From Petroclostridium xylanilyticum (GTDB lineage Bacteria; Bacillota; Clostridia; SK-Y3), in NCBI RefSeq assembly GCF_002252565.1, contig NZ_NPML01000031.1:1-64000 (forward strand): 64,000 nt of DNA, given 5' to 3'. Each line of letters begins with the position of its first letter. The stretch's first letter is position 1. The translations under genes and the position numbers were made by a program. This document shows positions 16,409-62,862 of the stretch, piece by piece. The notes beneath the pieces were generated by a model. It was not told the origin of the DNA and searched no databases. It saw only the letters and a list, made by a program, of their open reading frames with translations.

Positions 16409-16531
16409 TTATATATTTACTGATAATGATTTTACATGGCAGATAAAGTCAATAAGTTCACGGTTCACAGTAAAAGCTATTAAATCGTTTGCTACTGTGA
16501 ACTGAAAACTGTTAACTGTGAACTATATAGT
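16409..16531. repeat. About 120-bp intergenic repeat (inverted partner at 41748-41881)
   Basis: From TATATATTTACTGATAATG to TAACTGTGAACTATATAG this block is near-identical to the reverse complement of 41748-41881, with about 14 bases fewer in the GTTCACGGTTCAC part. Inner arms TTCACGGTTCACAGTAAAAG and the later GCTACTGTGAACTG can pair. It belongs to the GTTCACAGTTAACAG family found in several spacers. Confidence 0.8.
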
Positions 16532-16548
16532 ATATATTTTTTAAGTTT

Positions 16549-36687: not shown

Positions 36688-36734
36688 ATATTACAATGAG
36701 TTTAAAATATAATATTGGTTTATAAATGCAAAGA

Positions 36735-36985
36735 AAGAGAAGAGTAGATATTTGTTGAAGGTTCAGCGAGTTGGGGATGGTGGAAGCCCAATCCGAGGTA
36801 GCAAATATTGAAGATCACTCTGGAGCAGCAGGCCGAACCATAGTAGGTTTTGTCGTAATCCCGACGTTATATGGGAAGCATATAGATTGAGGCTGTATGT
36901 GGTGAGATGGATACGCTATGTATCAAATCAGGTGGTACCGCGGAAATACCCTTTCGTCCTGTTATGGATGAAAGGTTTTTTTATT
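36735..36985 (+). promoter_or_regulatory. T-box leader, isoleucine-specific
   Basis: Stem I contains the AG-rich bulge and the GGTTCAGCGAGTTGGGGATGG apical region in pieces, with the specifier ATC at 36814-36816 in GAAGATCACTCTGG. The antiterminator T-box AGGTGGTACCGCGG is at 36930-36943. The terminator stem CCCTTTCGTCC/GGATGAAAGG with TTTTTTT lies at 36950-36982. Uncharged tRNA-Ile is expected to stabilise the antiterminator and let ileS be read. Specifier and downstream gene agree. Confidence 0.95.
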
Positions 36986-41164: not shown

Positions 41165-41392
41165 TTACAATCTACAAATTGACATAATAGTAAATCTATA
41201 ATCAAATTGTACAAATGCAAGTTTTTTATATACGTCAACCAGCGCAAGCTGACGTTCATAAGTTTCTATACTCATTATAACTAAATTACCATACCCATTT
41301 TTTGTAATATAAATAGGTTCCCTATATTTATGGCATATTTCTGATATTTCATTTGTATTTCTTAAATCTGTTATAGGTCTTATTTGTGGCAT
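41165..41392 (-). pseudogene. Truncated Phd/YefM-type antitoxin copy
   Basis: Residues 1-58 match the intact antitoxin at 47562-47828 almost completely (one N-to-D change), then the sequence diverges at GCAAGTTTTTTAT (about 41217) and reads into unrelated codons before a stop. The promoter, palindromic operator (41420-41440) and ribosome site (weakened to AGAGATGAT) are duplicated too. It is a partial duplication rather than an independent gene; a truncated product might still bind DNA because the N-terminal part does that in this family. No toxin gene is adjacent. Confidence 0.85.
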
Positions 41393-41419
41393 AGTATTAT
41401 CATCTCTAGTTTATTATGT

Positions 41420-41440
41420 CATTATTATAGCATAATAATG
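41420..41440. promoter_or_regulatory. Palindromic operator of truncated antitoxin copy
   Basis: CATTATTAT-AGC-ATAATAATG, perfect 9-base arms, matching the palindrome before the intact antitoxin except for the middle base. Confidence 0.65.
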
Positions 41441-41581
41441 TATAAATTATAATTAGTATCGTTCTAATTATATTATTTTATGGACGTATATTTTTTAGTA
41501 TCTTTATTCTTTTAAAATTGGCTAACTTAAAAAAAGAATATTAAAAATGTGAACAAATTTTTAAAATTATAAAATTATCTC

Positions 41582-41645
41582 TTGACAACGTAAAATATAT
41601 TTAATAAAATTTTAATTGTTAGCACTCATGAATATTGAGTGCTAA
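41582..41645 (+). promoter_or_regulatory. Orphan heat-shock promoter with CIRCE (HrcA operator)
   Basis: TTGACA (41582-41587), 17-base spacer, TAAAAT (41605-41610), then a perfect CIRCE element TTAGCACTC-N9-GAGTGCTAA at 41619-41645. HrcA normally binds this before groESL or dnaK operons. No chaperone gene follows; the next features are a repeat, a 12-codon ORF and the GH130 operon. Confidence 0.93.
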
Positions 41646-41747
41646 CAAAACAAATTATTTTTCTAATAATGCCGGGTTGAAAACACATTTCTAGATTTAG
41701 TAGCTTATTTCTTTATTAACAATATTGGATATGTTTAATGGTACTAT

Positions 41748-41881
41748 ATAGTTCACAGTTAACAGTTCTCAGTTCATAGTAGTAAACGATTTAATAGCTT
41801 TTACTGTGAACTGTGAACCGTGAACTGTGAACTTATTGACTTTATCTGCCATGTAAAATCATTATCAGTAAATATATAGTA
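41748..41881. repeat. About 130-bp intergenic repeat (inverted partner of 16409-16531)
   Basis: Reverse complement aligns end to end with 16409-16531, including CTATATAGTTCACAGTTAAC at one end and CATTATCAGTAAATATATAG at the other, with an extra 14-base GTGAACCGTGAACT-type unit. It lies between the CIRCE promoter and the 12-codon ORF. Confidence 0.82.
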
Positions 41882-41932
41882 CTTAAAGTTGTAATATAAA
41901 ACATTAAAATATTGTTAAGGAGGAATACATAT

Positions 41933-41971
41933 ATGAAAAGCATATTTTTTATTTCTGAAAAAAATAACTGA
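41933..41971 (+). CDS. 12-codon ORF with strong ribosome site
   Basis: AAGGAGG at 41917-41923 is followed by ATG and 12 codons, MKSIFFISEKNN, then TGA. The ribosome site is as good as any in the window, so translation is likely if the region is transcribed. It may be the remnant 5' end of a lost gene (possibly the heat-shock gene that belonged to the CIRCE promoter) or a small leader peptide. No match to a known start such as GroES is seen. Confidence 0.35.
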   Translation: MKSIFFISEKNN

Positions 41972-42011
41972 GTCAATATCCATTTCTAAAATTATTTCAC
42001 AATAACAAATT

Positions 42012-42062
42012 TATATCGATAACCAAAATCAATTTAATAAAGTCTTAATATTTATAGATAAT
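42012..42062 (-). repeat. Partial, degraded two-hairpin repeat, copy D
   Basis: Read on the minus strand, TTTTGGTTATCGATAT at one end matches the 3' arm of copies A-C, and the rest is loosely similar (TTATTAAATTGAT). The other arm is eroded to ATTATCTAT, and the variable first stem is not seen. Confidence 0.45.
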
Positions 42063-42067
42063 GTTAC

Positions 42068-42081
42068 TGCAAATGCTTGCA
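42068..42081 (+). promoter_or_regulatory. Candidate LacI-type operator before GH130 operon
   Basis: TGCAAATGCTTGCA has 5-base arms TGCAA/TTGCA typical of LacI/GalR-family sites. It lies about 135 bases upstream of the GH130 gene. Confidence 0.4.
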
Positions 42082-42214
42082 CATACAAAATACAAAGTTA
42101 TTGTAAAATCTTTAGTGTGTTCAATATAGTTTTAAAGTCAGTTAATTATTTATAATAAAAATTAAAAATGCATTTTGACAGCTTTGAGCTTATGTTGAAT
42201 AGGAGGGGCGCTTT

Positions 42215-43234
42215 ATGTCGCATAAAGGGTTTCAGACAAGATTAAAAAGCAGCGATAATACATATAAAGAGCTGTTTAAAAGGCATTCAAATAATCCCAT
42301 ATTGACATCCAAAGATTGGCCTTATGCAGCCAATACGGTTTTCAATCCGGCAGTAACCCTTTACAATGACAAGGTATTATTACTTGCCCGGGTAGAAGAC
42401 AGGAGAGGTTTTTCACACTTAACCAAAGCTATCAGTGAAGACGGAGTAAGCAACTGGCAGATTGATCCTTCGCCCACCTTGGAACCGGACCCTGAGCATT
42501 ATCCAGAAGAAGCATGGGGAATTGAAGATCCAAGAATTACATGGATAGAAGAACTGGGAAAATGGGCAATCACTTATACTGCCTATTCTCATGGAGGACC
42601 GCTGGTAGCACTGGCATTAACAAAGGATTTTGTCACTTTTGAGAGATTAGGACCTATTATGCCGCCGGAAGATAAAGATGCCGCACTATTTCCAAGGCGG
42701 TTTGACGGTAAATGGGTGTTAATACATCGGCCGATTCCTGCTTTTAAAGGTGCAGGTGCCCATATATGGGTTTCAAGCTCTAATGACTTAAAATACTGGG
42801 GGGATCATCAGATATTAATAAATGCACGCCAGGGAGGGTGGTGGGATGCTAATAAAGTTGGCCTTTCTCCACAACCTCTTGAAACACCGGAAGGGTGGCT
42901 GATCCTTTACCACGGGGTAAGGCAAACTGTTGCTGGAGCAATCTATAGACTCGGACTTGCCCTGCTCGACTTAGAAAATCCTTTTAAGGTCTTGAGAAGA
43001 AGTGACGAGTGGGTGTTTGGGCCATCAGAGCCATATGAGAGGGAGGGGGATGTTGATGATGTGGTATTTCCCTGTGGATGGATTCTAGATAAGGAAAGCG
43101 GAATTGTCAGAATGTATTATGGCGGGGCAGATACTTGCATAGCCTTGGCTACGGCAAACTTGAGTGATCTGCTTGAATATATCAAAAGATGCCCACAACC
43201 CAAAGAAAACGAACAATTAAGCACAGCAGATTAG
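42215..43234 (+). CDS. Glycoside hydrolase family 130 (mannoside phosphorylase-like)
   Basis: 339 residues with GGAGGGG upstream. Five-bladed propeller sequence motifs: NPAVTLYNDKVLLLARVEDRRG split by blades, EAWGIEDPRI (catalytic Asp region), ALFPRRFDGKWVLIHRP and GWLILYHGVR. GH130 enzymes cleave beta-mannosides with phosphate, releasing mannose 1-phosphate (some members hydrolyse). No signal peptide, so intracellular. First gene of a coupled set with a nucleotidyltransferase, which could use mannose 1-phosphate. The exact linkage is unknown. Confidence 0.9.
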   Translation: MSHKGFQTRLKSSDNTYKELFKRHSNNPILTSKDWPYAANTVFNPAVTLYNDKVLLLARVEDRRGFSHLTKAISEDGVSNWQIDPSPTLEPDPEHYPEEAWGIEDPRITWIEELGKWAITYTAYSHGGPLVALALTKDFVTFERLGPIMPPEDKDAALFPRRFDGKWVLIHRPIPAFKGAGAHIWVSSSNDLKYWGDHQILINARQGGWWDANKVGLSPQPLETPEGWLILYHGVRQTVAGAIYRLGLALLDLENPFKVLRRSDEWVFGPSEPYEREGDVDDVVFPCGWILDKESGIVRMYYGGADTCIALATANLSDLLEYIKRCPQPKENEQLSTAD

Positions 43235-43321
43235 GTTATCTTAACATGTAAAATCAATAAAAGTTTTCATCTTAGTACAATAGTACAATAAACTAACCCA
43301 TTGATTCAAGGAGGGATACAT

Positions 43322-44380
43322 ATGAAAGCACTTCTTCTTGCCGGCGGCAGAGGGACAAGACTGCAGCCGCTCACAAACAACATTCCAAAACCTATGGTTC
43401 CCATTGTAGGTAAGCCTCTTTTGGAAAGAACCATAGCAAATCTCAAAAAAAACGGGATTAATGAAATTATCCTTAGTACCTGCTATCAGTCCCAGTATAT
43501 TAAAAATTATTTTGGTGATGGAAAACAATTTGGAGTAAAGATTCATTATATCAGCGAAGACATACCTCTCGGTACGGGAGGTGCAGTTAAGCAGGCAGAA
43601 AAATATTTTGATGATACTTTTGTCGTATTGAATTCGGATATTTTAAGCGATATAGATGTTGGACAATTGATTGAACACCATAGGAATAAATCCTGTATAG
43701 CGACGATTGCTGTAACCGAAGTTAAAAATCCATCCCAGTATGGAGTAATTGAATATGACAGCCATCACTATATCACTTCATTCAAGGAAAAGCCGCAGGC
43801 ACATGAAATCGCATCTAATTTCATCAACGCAGGCATTTATGTATTCGAGCCTCAAATATTTAACGAAATTCCATCAAATAGGGTGGTTTCAATAGAAAAA
43901 GAAACATATCCTATGCTGCTAAATAAAGGCTATAAGATGGCTGCATATGAGATGCGTTGCTACTGGATGGACATTGGTACACCTGAAAAATATATTCAGG
44001 CACATAAAGATATTTTAAATGCCGAGTGTAAGATATTTAGCGATTGTTTAATGGGTTGCAGTCACGTAGGTGACCTCATTTTAAAAGGAAAAAATACAAG
44101 AATCCATCCTGAAGCAAAAATTGTGGGGCCTGTATATGTGGGTGAGAATGTTAACATAGAAGCTTATGCTTTTGTAGGACCTCATGCAGTAATAGGAGAT
44201 GGATCAAGTATTGCGATGGGAAGCAGGGTTGTAGGAAGCGTCTTATGGGACCATGTGAGAGTTGGCAGGGGAGCCAGACTGGTTAACACCGTCATAGCTT
44301 CCAACTGCAGAATAGATGGTAGTGAAGAAGTTTATAACACGGTATATACAGAAGATGTTCTTCAGCCTGTAGCAATATAA
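43322..44380 (+). CDS. NDP-sugar pyrophosphorylase (mannose-1-phosphate guanylyltransferase-like)
   Basis: 352 residues from ATG at 43322 after AAGGAGGG; an upstream TTG overlaps the ribosome site. N-terminal nucleotidyltransferase motif LLAGGRGTRLQPLTNNIPKP, with VLNSDILSDID and FINAGIYVFEP, and a C-terminal left-handed beta-helix of hexapeptide repeats (about 240-345). It activates a sugar 1-phosphate to an NDP-sugar. Mannose 1-phosphate is a reasonable substrate given the GH130 neighbour, but glucose 1-phosphate cannot be excluded. Confidence 0.9.
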   Translation: MKALLLAGGRGTRLQPLTNNIPKPMVPIVGKPLLERTIANLKKNGINEIILSTCYQSQYIKNYFGDGKQFGVKIHYISEDIPLGTGGAVKQAEKYFDDTFVVLNSDILSDIDVGQLIEHHRNKSCIATIAVTEVKNPSQYGVIEYDSHHYITSFKEKPQAHEIASNFINAGIYVFEPQIFNEIPSNRVVSIEKETYPMLLNKGYKMAAYEMRCYWMDIGTPEKYIQAHKDILNAECKIFSDCLMGCSHVGDLILKGKNTRIHPEAKIVGPVYVGENVNIEAYAFVGPHAVIGDGSSIAMGSRVVGSVLWDHVRVGRGARLVNTVIASNCRIDGSEEVYNTVYTEDVLQPVAI

Positions 44381-44416
44381 ATAATTTATAGTATAAAAGA
44401 TTGAAGGAGGTATATG

Positions 44417-45595
44417 ATGGTTACGACAAACAGAAAAAGAAATGTAGCTTTTCTAAGTACCTATCCGCCCAGGGAATGTGGGCTGGCTACCTTTACTCAG
44501 GATTTAATAAATGAACTGGATAATGTAAAATTGTTAAATACACCTAAAATAGTTGCAGTAAGCAATGATAAATATCACTATGATGAAAAGGTTATTGTTG
44601 AACTGGATCAATTTGACCGTCAAAATTATATTGATTTAGCAGAAAAACTTAATCAGTCGGATATTGATCTATTAGTAATTGAACATGAATACGGAATTTT
44701 TGGTGGAGAATGCGGTGAATATCTGATTGACCTTGTTGAGAATTTAAAAATACCATTTGTAACAACTTTACACACTGTGTTGCCTCACCCCAATGACAAA
44801 CAAAGAACCATATTAAAGATTTTGGGAGAAAAAAGCTTAAAGGTTATCACCATGGCGAGAAATACAGTTGATATTTTAAAAAGCGTATATGAAATAGATA
44901 TAGGAAACATTGAGGTAATCCACCACGGTGTACCATTCCGTATTATGGATTCCAGGGATAGGCTTAAAGAAAGATATGGGTATAAAAACAGGCAGATTAT
45001 AAGCACCTTTGGGTTGATAAGTCCGGGCAAGGGACTTGAGTACGGGATTGAAGCGATTGCAAAAGTAGTGCAAGATCATGAAGATATCTTGTACCTCATT
45101 CTGGGTCAAACACATCCGTGCGTGAAAAAAGAACATGGTGAATCGTACAGGGAAAAACTTATACATTTAGTATCGGAGCTGGGTTTGCAGGGACATGTAC
45201 AGTTTATTGACAAATACCTGACGAGAGAAGAAATTATACAGTATCTTCAACTATCGGATATCTATATGACGCCATACCTGGGTAAAGACCAGGCTGTAAG
45301 CGGTACCCTGGCCTATGCAGTAGGCTATGGGAGGGTTATTGTTTCAACTCCTTACAGCTATGCAAGAGAAATGCTGGAGGATGGAAGAGGACTTTTAGCT
45401 GAATTTAGAAATTCAGACTCACTTGCAAAATGTATCCGATATATACTTGAAAATCCTGACAAGAAAAAAGAGATGGAAACCAAGACAACTGCCTTAGGTA
45501 AGTCTATGATGTGGAATAATGTTGCAAAGCAGTATACAAAACTGTTTTTAGATATCATTGAAAATAATCAATCCTGCAAAGAGCAGGTAGTTTGA
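44417..45595 (+). CDS. Glycosyltransferase family 4
   Basis: 392 residues; of ATGs at 44414 and 44417 the second is better spaced from AAGGAGG. GT-B fold: N-terminal FLSTYPPRECGLATFTQDL, acceptor-side HTVLPHPND, then HHGVPF, donor-binding GLISPGKGLEYGIEAI and YLGKDQAVSGTLAYAVGYGR. It transfers sugar from an NDP-sugar, probably made by the upstream enzyme. The stop codon overlaps the next start as TGATG. Confidence 0.91.
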   Translation: MVTTNRKRNVAFLSTYPPRECGLATFTQDLINELDNVKLLNTPKIVAVSNDKYHYDEKVIVELDQFDRQNYIDLAEKLNQSDIDLLVIEHEYGIFGGECGEYLIDLVENLKIPFVTTLHTVLPHPNDKQRTILKILGEKSLKVITMARNTVDILKSVYEIDIGNIEVIHHGVPFRIMDSRDRLKERYGYKNRQIISTFGLISPGKGLEYGIEAIAKVVQDHEDILYLILGQTHPCVKKEHGESYREKLIHLVSELGLQGHVQFIDKYLTREEIIQYLQLSDIYMTPYLGKDQAVSGTLAYAVGYGRVIVSTPYSYAREMLEDGRGLLAEFRNSDSLAKCIRYILENPDKKKEMETKTTALGKSMMWNNVAKQYTKLFLDIIENNQSCKEQVV

Positions 45596-46758
45596 TGACT
45601 GCAATAAAAAAAATTCAATTTAATTGCGACCACATATTTAGACTTACCGATGATACCGGCATATTCCAGCATGCCAAATATGGAGTGCCTGATCCTACCA
45701 AAGGGTATACCACCGATGACAATGCAAGGGCCTTGATAGCAGCTGCAGCTTTATATGGACGGTTCCGGGATAAGAAATACCTTGAATTGACGTACAGATA
45801 CCTATCTTTTATCCTTAACGCCCAGAACCCAAAGGGCAAGTTTAAAAACTTTATGAATTATAACAGGGAATTCATAGAAGAGGAAGGTTCTGAAGATTGC
45901 TTTGGCAGGTGTTTATGGGCTCTAGGCTATGCCCTGTCCAGGAATTCTGTTCCACAGGATATAAAAAAAACCTGCAGGTATATTATTGGCAAAGCCCTGC
46001 CCAATGTAAATCATTTAAATTTCCCGAGGGCAAAAGCTTATTCCATCCTGGGAATGGGATATATGGCTTCGCAGCCGCATCGTAAATTTTGTGTCAAGTG
46101 CTGCGGTTCGGTATTCCATAAATACAGCTTCTTCTGTAGTGATAATAGCCGGATACAGGATATTTACAGCTGTATTAACAAATTATCGGAAGAACTGGTA
46201 GAGCGATATGAACAATTTTGTACGGATGATTGGCATTGGTTTGAAGATATTATCACATACAGCAATGCTGTTTTACCCTGGTCCTTGCTCGTAGCCTATA
46301 AAATATTAAAAAGTAAAAAATATCTGGAAATAGCTTTGGAAAGTTTGAACTTTCTTGAGAAAATAACATTTGCAAATGGGTACTTTAAACCTGTAGGCTG
46401 CAAGGGATGGATGTCTAGAGGGAAAGAACCGGCTGCATTTGATGAACAACCCTTGGAGGCATGTGAGACAACACTTATGTATTTACAGGCTTATGAAATT
46501 TTAAAGGAGAAAAAATATCTGGAAAAAGCCAGAGAATGTTTTGAATGGTATCATGGGAAAAATTCAAAGAATATAAAACTCATAGACCGGCAATCCGGGG
46601 GATGTTATGATGGTATCACAGACAATGGCGTTAACCTGAACCAGGGTGCTGAAAGTATCATTTCCTACTGCATCGCTCATATGGCTCTATTAGATTACAT
46701 TCCTTTTATTAAGAGAAAGGTCTTAAGAAAAGGACAGCATGAGGAGGAATTAAAATGA
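45595..46758 (+). CDS. Glycosyltransferase-associated alpha/alpha-barrel type protein, function unknown
   Basis: 387 residues; ATG at 45595 overlaps the GT4 stop. The sequence starts FRLTDDTGIFQHAKYGVPDP and GYTTDDNARALIAAA, then helical repeats with LWALGYALS, KCCGSVFHKYSFF and DDWHWFEDIITYSNAVLPW. The repeated helices with aromatic and acidic residues suggest a (alpha/alpha)6 toroid as in mannanases, cellobiose epimerases or glycosidases. Similar proteins are encoded next to, or fused with, GT4 enzymes. No signal peptide. A role in trimming or epimerising the glycan made by the operon is inference. Confidence 0.75.
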   Translation: MTAIKKIQFNCDHIFRLTDDTGIFQHAKYGVPDPTKGYTTDDNARALIAAAALYGRFRDKKYLELTYRYLSFILNAQNPKGKFKNFMNYNREFIEEEGSEDCFGRCLWALGYALSRNSVPQDIKKTCRYIIGKALPNVNHLNFPRAKAYSILGMGYMASQPHRKFCVKCCGSVFHKYSFFCSDNSRIQDIYSCINKLSEELVERYEQFCTDDWHWFEDIITYSNAVLPWSLLVAYKILKSKKYLEIALESLNFLEKITFANGYFKPVGCKGWMSRGKEPAAFDEQPLEACETTLMYLQAYEILKEKKYLEKARECFEWYHGKNSKNIKLIDRQSGGCYDGITDNGVNLNQGAESIISYCIAHMALLDYIPFIKRKVLRKGQHEEELK

Positions 46759-47315
46759 GTGAAACATTTATAAGAGCGATTGAAAGGACAGAAAAACCCA
46801 AGAAAGCCAGAAGGGACGGATTTGCCCCGGGCGTCATTTATGGAGAGGGGTATGAAAATGGTCTGCCTGTTAAATTTGAGATGCTAAAGCTCAAGAGAAT
46901 CTTAAAAAAACAGGGACAGAATACGAAAATCTGGATTAAGATAGGCGAGCAAACTAAATACGGAGTTATTAAAGATATTCAGAGAGACCCTATAACTGGG
47001 GATATTGTTCATATAGACATACAAACTATTTCACAAAATGATGATGTAAAATTAAAGCTTCCTATTGTATTTACCGGAAGAAATAAATTGGAAGAAAGAA
47101 AGCTTTTACTGCAAGTTCTTATTCCTGAAATAGAAGTTTTAGGAAAAGCCAGTGAATTGCCTGAGTTTATTACTATAGATGTGAGCGGCAAAAAGTCAGG
47201 TGAAAAAATCACTGTCAATGATATACGGATGACTGAGCAAATTAGAGTTCTTAGTGATACAAAAGATGTTCTAGCCATTGTAATTGAACCAAAAGAATTG
47301 AGTATTGCAAGTTAA
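46755..47315 (+). CDS. Ribosomal protein L25 / general stress protein Ctc
   Basis: 186 residues, the two-domain CTC type. The N-terminal L25 domain (KPKKARRDGFAPGVIYGEG...) binds 5S rRNA; the C-terminal beta domain runs about 95-186. GAGGAGG ribosome site lies in the end of the preceding gene, and the genes overlap by four bases (ATGA). Coupling L25/Ctc to a glycan operon is unusual; it is often near prs or pth. In Bacillus, Ctc is stress induced, which fits the heat-shock operator further upstream only loosely. Confidence 0.92.
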   Translation: MSETFIRAIERTEKPKKARRDGFAPGVIYGEGYENGLPVKFEMLKLKRILKKQGQNTKIWIKIGEQTKYGVIKDIQRDPITGDIVHIDIQTISQNDDVKLKLPIVFTGRNKLEERKLLLQVLIPEIEVLGKASELPEFITIDVSGKKSGEKITVNDIRMTEQIRVLSDTKDVLAIVIEPKELSIAS

Positions 47316-47561: not shown

Positions 47562-47828
47562 CTACTTTGTTGCATATTTATCCCTCAGGTTTTTGAAAAC
47601 CTCTTCTCCATCTAACAGTGGAACACCTTTTGTAATTTGTGCTTCTGCCTCTGCAAGTTTTTTATATACGTCAACCAGCGCAAGCTGACGCTCATAAGTT
47701 TCTATACTCATTATAACTAAATCACCATACCCATTTTTTGTAATATAAATAGGTTCTCTATATTTATGGCATATTTCTGATATTTCATTTGTATTTCTTA
47801 AATCTGTTATAGGTCTTATTTGTGGCAT
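47562..47828 (-). CDS. Orphan Phd/YefM-family antitoxin
   Basis: 88 residues on the minus strand, preceded by AGAGGTGAT. N-terminal Phd/YefM DNA-binding domain (PQIRPITDLRNTNEISEICH, IYITKNGYGDLVIMSIETYE) followed by a C-terminal helical tail (EGEEVFKNL-type) that in this family wraps the toxin. A perfect palindrome sits in the promoter, as expected for autoregulation. No RelE/Doc-like toxin gene lies on either side, so it is an orphan or acts on a toxin elsewhere. A truncated duplicate lies at 41165-41392. Confidence 0.87.
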   Translation of the reverse strand: MPQIRPITDLRNTNEISEICHKYREPIYITKNGYGDLVIMSIETYERQLALVDVYKKLAEAEAQITKGVPLLDGEEVFKNLRDKYATK

Positions 47829-47855
47829 AGTATTATCACCTCTAATTTATTATGT

Positions 47856-47876
47856 CATTATTATAACATAATAATG
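47856..47876. promoter_or_regulatory. Palindromic operator of antitoxin gene
   Basis: CATTATTAT-AAC-ATAATAATG with perfect 9-base arms, 28 bases upstream of the antitoxin start codon; duplicated at 41420-41440. Confidence 0.7.
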
Positions 47877-47996
47877 TACAAATTACAATTAGTATCTTTA
47901 TTCTGGGATAATTAAATCCAAAGAGTTGCAAAAAACACAAGATAAGATATAATTAGGAGACAGAGGAAAATTAAATTACAAAGGAGATTTTAAGTA

Positions 47997-62665: not shown

Positions 62666-62671
62666 TCGAAA

Positions 62672-62812
62672 ATAAAAGCGCCTGGGCTGTATAATATACA
62701 GTTGACGAGGATGAGGTTTATCGGATTTTCGGCGGATGCCTCACGGTGACATACCACCGATAAAGGTCTTACAAACCCGCAAGCGATTGCGGTCCAAAAG
62801 AGGCCGGGTATG
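62672..62812 (+). promoter_or_regulatory. glmS ribozyme (glucosamine-6-phosphate sensing)
   Basis: AGCGCCTGGGCT starts the core; self-cleavage is expected between A62677 and G62678. Conserved segments AGTTGACGAGGATGAGGTT, TCGGCGGATGCCTC and ACAAACCCGCAAG follow in the right order, ending near AGGCCGGGT. On binding glucosamine 6-phosphate the RNA cuts itself and the glmS mRNA is degraded, giving feedback control of amino-sugar synthesis. Confidence 0.96.
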
Positions 62813-62862
62813 AATAGGATGAAAATAGAAAAATATACTATTCATTAATGGAGGTTTCAAGT

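Follow-up and report, generated by a model that had tools for sequence, protein, structure and literature searches.

The class I heat-shock regulon of Firmicutes, which places groESL and hrcA-grpE-dnaK-dnaJ under the repressor HrcA and its operator CIRCE, is usually regarded as chaperone-centred, and its mechanism, GroEL titration, is known from Bacillus. The GH130 mannoside phosphorylases, such as RaMP2 (5ayd), UhgbMP (4udg), TM1225 (1vkd), and Lin0857 (5b0p), are carbohydrate enzymes; our literature search returned no report linking GH130 or mannoside phosphorylase to HrcA, CIRCE, or heat shock, which is weak evidence of novelty, as subscription papers lay mostly outside the search. Here, we describe a GH130 operon in the window (the whole 64-kb stretch of DNA that was analyzed) that is preceded at 41.6 kb by CIRCE. 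This CIRCE is very probably a functional HrcA operator, serving a conserved carbohydrate operon that is coregulated with chaperones; this assessment covers HrcA control of the operon and not the sugar product. Coordinates are collected in Table 1.

Table 1. Features of the GH130 operon and its control region (window coordinates unless a locus is named)
Feature	Position	Strand	Remarks
SigmaA-type promoter, TTGACA-N17-TAAAAT	41582..41610	+	11/12 consensus matches
CIRCE, predicted HrcA operator, perfect 9-9-9	41619..41645	.	0 mismatches; conserved before orthologous operon
Copy of dispersed ~100-bp palindromic repeat in operon leader	41740..41845	.	Arms 41750-41781 / 41802-41833
Ribosome site AAGGAGG and 12-codon ORF	41914..41971	+	ATG at 41933; probable decayed nucleotidyltransferase start
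GH130 mannoside phosphorylase-type enzyme, first intact operon gene	42215..43234	+	PF04041, E=7.9e-57
Sugar-1-phosphate nucleotidyltransferase with hexapeptide domain, mannose-1-phosphate guanylyltransferase-like	43322..44380	+	PF00483
GT4 glycosyltransferase	44414..45595	+	PF00534/PF13692
(alpha/alpha)6-barrel protein, AGE/cellobiose-2-epimerase-like fold	45595..46758	+	AlphaFold pLDDT 87.6
bL25/Ctc, extra copy closing operon	46755..47315	+	TIGR00731 above cut-off
groESL as operon tail	L071:13441-15362; L074:14856-16778	operon direction	Second groESL of genome

The -35 hexamer (41582-41587) and the -10 hexamer (41605-41610) are separated by a 17-nt spacer and form the top promoter-like site of the region. 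CIRCE starts 8 nt behind the -10 hexamer and reads TTAGCACTC-ATGAATATT-GAGTGCTAA (full sequence, TTAGCACTCATGAATATTGAGTGCTAA), which places the inverted repeat TTAGCACTC-N9-GAGTGCTAA characteristic of the HrcA/CIRCE regulon near the predicted transcription start. The promoter-operator module reported in the preliminary description (41582-41645) is thus confirmed, and the downstream elements listed there, namely, a repeat, a 12-codon open reading frame (ORF) with an excellent ribosome site, and a GH130 operon ending in L25/Ctc (42215-47315), are all present. With ≤3 mismatches allowed, the window contains a single CIRCE (shuffles gave 0.02 on average); genome-wide (3.86 Mb), there are five, every one a perfect match, and a reversed control pattern gave no genome-wide hits at the same threshold.

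The other four sites bear on one of the readings first proposed for this promoter, that it is a relic: CIRCE would formerly have driven groESL or another chaperone that has since disappeared or relocated, with the GH130 operon ending up behind it by chance. Signs of rearrangement in the leader (a dispersed repeat, a decayed start codon, and a truncated antitoxin-gene copy just upstream) speak for such a history, as does the presence of groESL after the operon in two relatives. Against it, three of the other sites front htpG (L046), hrcA-grpE-dnaK (L048), and groES-groEL (L049). Thus, every main chaperone operon of the genome retains its own perfect CIRCE, all standard HrcA targets are present, and the loss of a chaperone has nothing to explain. 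The groEL gene, which the preliminary description had suggested locating, is single (C29:72121-73626) and lies behind its own CIRCE, as does the gene for HrcA itself (L048:1932-2990; PF01628, E=5.7e-69). CIRCE before GH130 moreover recurs in Desulforamulus, Acetivibrio, Pseudobacteroides, Thermoclostridium, Caproiciproducens, and others, and genes of the operon are listed as heat induced in Acetivibrio thermocellus (PMC3848806, Table 2). We therefore regard a relic as very unlikely. The fifth site of the genome (L047:3001-3027), also perfect, looks truly orphan; it precedes a frame-broken gene that by eye resembles a chemotaxis receptor.

CIRCE and GH130 are 570 bp apart in the window, with a strong hairpin repeat between them. 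The repeat occurs in at least 40 places in the genome at 82 to 100% identity (40 scored from 144 candidates), and the leader copy is predicted to fold at -39.7 kcal/mol; a further site within the window lies at 16456-16532 (arms of ∼32 bp). Beyond it, the 12-codon ORF (41933-41971) encodes M-K-S-I-F-F-I-S-E-K-N-N. The preliminary description had suggested that HrcA might control this small peptide, and a regulatory or stress peptide would fit the very good ribosome site and the proper spacing of its ATG. However, the ribosome site and first codons are the same as those of the nucleotidyltransferase gene that lies right behind CIRCE in G001, the nearest relative (L044): the alignment scored 71, a value equaled by 0 of 1,000 dinucleotide shuffles, and an unrelated leader used as control scored at chance. 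In addition, an unsystematic look at the aligned leaders revealed no corresponding short ORF. HrcA control of such a peptide is thus exceedingly unlikely, and the ORF is best read, from these alignments, as the decayed remnant of a nucleotidyltransferase start, which a rearrangement that put GH130 first would have left behind. A common GH130 leader in the window and G001 was not above chance (122 of 1,000 shuffles). As a separate observation, a Phd/YefM antitoxin gene region flanks the whole operon as two direct copies (41216-41463 and 47652-47899) that are 96% identical, the left copy being truncated.

The length of this leader and the strength of its hairpin may weaken GH130 expression or its coupling to the promoter in the window organism. 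Carried further, this would mean that the promoter is intact but uncoupled, with the palindrome and long leader stopping most transcripts and GH130 being read from a promoter nearer 42.1 kb, where a site with 9/12 promoter matches is found (42101-42130). We judge such an arrangement improbable: an intrinsic terminator between CIRCE and GH130 was looked for and not found, sites of the 9/12 class also arise readily when sequence of like composition is shuffled (17 found, 11 expected), and promoter and operator are both intact, which argues for selection.

To gauge conservation, 84,980 species genomes were scanned by GH130 alignment, which yielded 80 loci, including 39 from Firmicutes (L066-L104) that were drawn by GH130 alone. 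Of the 39, 13 have CIRCE with 0 to 2 mismatches at a distance of 75 to 348 bp upstream of GH130 (L066, L067, L071-L076, L078, L083, L090, L102, and L103), among them Desulforamulus putei (L067), Thermoclostridium caenicola (L071), Acetivibrio straminisolvens (L073), Pseudobacteroides cellulosolvens (L074), and Caproiciproducens galactitolivorans (L103). Two perfect cases outside this set, L192 (G221) and A. thermocellus (L190), bring the total besides the window to 15 genomes, or 17 if L084 and L094 are counted, where the operon is reordered and CIRCE, with 2 to 3 mismatches, precedes its first gene by ∼430 bp. The promoter-CIRCE module, whose conservation in relatives the preliminary description had raised as a question, is therefore found before the same operon in ∼15 to 17 other Firmicutes genomes: a TTGACA-type -35/-10 pair with CIRCE 4 to 14 nt behind is conserved in most CIRCE-bearing orthologues and is weakest in L102 and L103. 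The distribution is all-or-none, as negative leaders reached 6 to 9 mismatches at best, like shuffled DNA, and none of ∼1,680 shuffled 600-bp leaders fell below 4 mismatches.

Within the family, CIRCE adjoins GH130 in both members with a close GH130 orthologue, G001 (L066; 82% identity) and G002 (L076; 76% identity). In G002, it has 2 mismatches and is upstream of GH130; in G001, a perfect copy lies between divergent GH130 and nucleotidyltransferase genes, so that GH130 of the nearest relative is oriented away from the promoter, which counts against HrcA control. The operator is accordingly conserved before orthologous genes in a subset of orthologues. Many orthologous operons lack it, including every Sporomusa and Pelosinus locus; HrcA control is therefore no inherent property of these enzymes. 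Within the fetched flanks of non-Firmicutes orthologues, no CIRCE was found. When mapped on a quick GH130 tree, CIRCE-bearing loci fall on multiple Firmicutes branches and require at least 8 state changes, a count that does not separate gains from losses. CtsR-type boxes did not exceed shuffled sequence in the leaders of CIRCE-negative orthologues, which thus yielded no other heat-shock operator.

Across these genomes, the operon core consists of GH130, nucleotidyltransferase, GT4, and the (alpha/alpha)6-barrel protein, with tails that vary among L25/Ctc (window, L066, L067, L103, and L192), phosphomannomutase (PMM) and/or the mannose-6-phosphate isomerase ManA (several loci), and groESL. The last arrangement, found in T. 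caenicola and P. cellulosolvens, joins the operon in the same direction to groES-groEL; in both, the sole CIRCE of the stretch is the one before GH130, and a second groEL is encoded elsewhere in the genome. In G002, the operon comes after hrcA-grpE-dnaK-dnaJ-prmA-rsmE. The cluster of this GH130 clade is also present in planctomycetes, deltaproteobacteria, and archaea. Among more distant loci, a Chloroflexi metagenome-assembled genome carries groES-groEL-GT4-GH130 on one strand (L116:4504-9966), in which CIRCE was not found, and a deltaproteobacterial locus (L139) is followed by two Hsp20 genes and groEL. Putative Hsp20 genes beside planctomycete clusters were rejected, the short flanking frames looking by eye like chance frames.

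Expression data are available for the orthologous operon of A. thermocellus, where a perfect CIRCE is followed by GH130, nucleotidyltransferase, GT4, barrel, and ManA genes. Separated from this five-gene operon by three genes lies pyruvate:ferredoxin oxidoreductase, which we take to be Cthe_3120 of strain ATCC 27405; by gene order, the operon then corresponds to Cthe_3112-3116, with Cthe_3112 and Cthe_3116 as its first and fifth genes. Both are among the ten most heat-induced genes in Table 2 of a heat-shock array study, beside Hsp20 (PMC3848806). The tabulated log2 values, given as control minus heat at 30, 60, and 120 min, are -2.61, -2.52, and -1.71 for Cthe_3112 (“Glycosidase related protein”) and -2.78, -2.84, and -2.11 for Cthe_3116 (“Mannose-6-phosphate isomerase, class I”), a negative value denoting higher expression under stress according to the table footnote (PMC3848806). 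The parts of that article considered here list the two genes singly and name neither the operon nor CIRCE; no hrcA mutant was noticed in them, so the array does not itself tie the heat induction to HrcA.

Several relatives carry a further element, an RNA hairpin of ∼100 nt (AAAGCGTTTTAATATTCCTTT ... AAGGAGTTTTAAAGCGCTTTTT) directly behind CIRCE (L190:1533-1635; also L072-L076 and L078). In A. thermocellus, CIRCE and hairpin together are predicted to fold at -59.7 kcal/mol (z score, -13.3). Both arms are conserved; a covarying RNA was considered, but the aligned leaders showed no compensatory changes at any pair, and the hairpin had no Rfam match. In G001, a predicted hairpin behind CIRCE (L044:6630-6730) includes the first gene's ribosome site, as another (L067:8920-9000) appears to do; such structures would fit candidate RNA thermometers acting beside HrcA. 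Rfam matches in the window itself are a T-box leader before ileS (36722-36964), a glmS ribozyme (62666-62815), and a TwoAYGGAY RNA (2409-2555).

The first operon gene belongs to GH130 by its PF04041 score (193 bits against a cut-off of 26), and its product aligns with TM1225, RaMP2, and UhgbMP, DPR motif included. Its best NCBIfam model scored 232 bits against an equivalog cut-off of 550, a threshold that concerns substrate class and is not required for family membership; the enzyme thus matched none of the characterized substrate classes. The nucleotidyltransferase matched NF052502 (man1P_GTase) best, below that model's cut-off, and the predicted structure of the barrel protein retrieved YPO2471 and cellobiose 2-epimerases in Foldseek. 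A second L25 gene is located elsewhere in the genome (C7:238656-238913). Given a guanylyltransferase-like enzyme, GT4, GH130, and a barrel enzyme, with PMM and ManA added in relatives, the operon most likely serves to synthesize a mannose-containing glycoside or oligosaccharide within the cell and to recycle it by phosphorolysis, the compound acting as a thermoprotectant or heat-stress carbon reserve. From gene content, the predicted substrate extends as far as a mannose-type sugar. Under the same HrcA control, the product could instead be an envelope glycan, or one destined for protein glycosylation, that is required on heat damage, a view that differs in the product only and draws on the use of GT4 and GDP-mannose-type genes for envelope glycans. 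We consider it rather unlikely, as no signal peptide or membrane anchor was evident by eye in the translated proteins, no flippase or polymerase gene lies within the operon, and the phosphorylase-type enzyme suggests that turnover takes place inside the cell.

HrcA control of the glycan operon, the remaining proposal of the preliminary description, is strongly supported by conservation, by the joining of groESL in two species, and by the heat induction listed for A. thermocellus. By extension from Bacillus, HrcA bound to CIRCE just behind the -10 hexamer would block transcription at normal temperature. On heat exposure, unfolded protein would titrate GroEL, HrcA would lose activity, and the operon would be expressed along with groESL and dnaK. 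Its enzymes would then make or recycle a mannoside via GDP-mannose-type synthesis, for which we infer a protective role. Since the operator is kept in distantly related clostridia and cluster genes are heat induced in one of them, making or recycling a mannose compound appears to belong to the chaperone response of these bacteria. More tentatively, and short of an even chance, the class I heat-shock response of Clostridia may include a chemical-chaperone arm in the form of a dedicated mannoside cycle under HrcA control, comprising GDP-mannose-type synthesis, GT4 transfer, and GH130 phosphorolysis, with a physical link to groESL in some species and an extra layer from leader-RNA hairpins in several. 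A metabolic operon conserved under a chaperone operator across distant clostridial families suggests that a mannose-based compound acts in this response as protectant or reserve, and it gives an uncharacterized GH130 clade a physiological context.

Compared with the class I regulon of Firmicutes, the window has the same perfect 9-9-9 repeat just behind a sigmaA -10 hexamer, in a genome that encodes an intact HrcA and has its groESL and dnaK operons behind CIRCE, but the genes of the operon encode carbohydrate enzymes rather than chaperones. With the described GH130 phosphorylases, the window enzyme shares PF04041 and the aligned DPR motif; it differs in belonging to a separate, highly conserved clade (69 to 83% identity within Firmicutes) that falls far under the NCBIfam equivalog cut-offs and in being encoded together with sugar-nucleotide and GT4 genes of the same operon, under predicted heat-shock control. 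Cthe_3112-3116 of A. thermocellus has the orthologous GH130-nucleotidyltransferase-GT4-barrel order and a perfect CIRCE, whereas it ends with ManA instead of L25/Ctc and has a compact leader with the conserved hairpin, unlike that of the window. The mannogen system of Leishmania, which relies on GT108 mannosyltransferase/phosphorylases related to GH130, belongs to a eukaryote and uses different enzymes and a beta-1,2-mannan; what the two would have in common is the idea of an intracellular mannose oligomer, phosphorylase-type turnover, and a link to heat tolerance.
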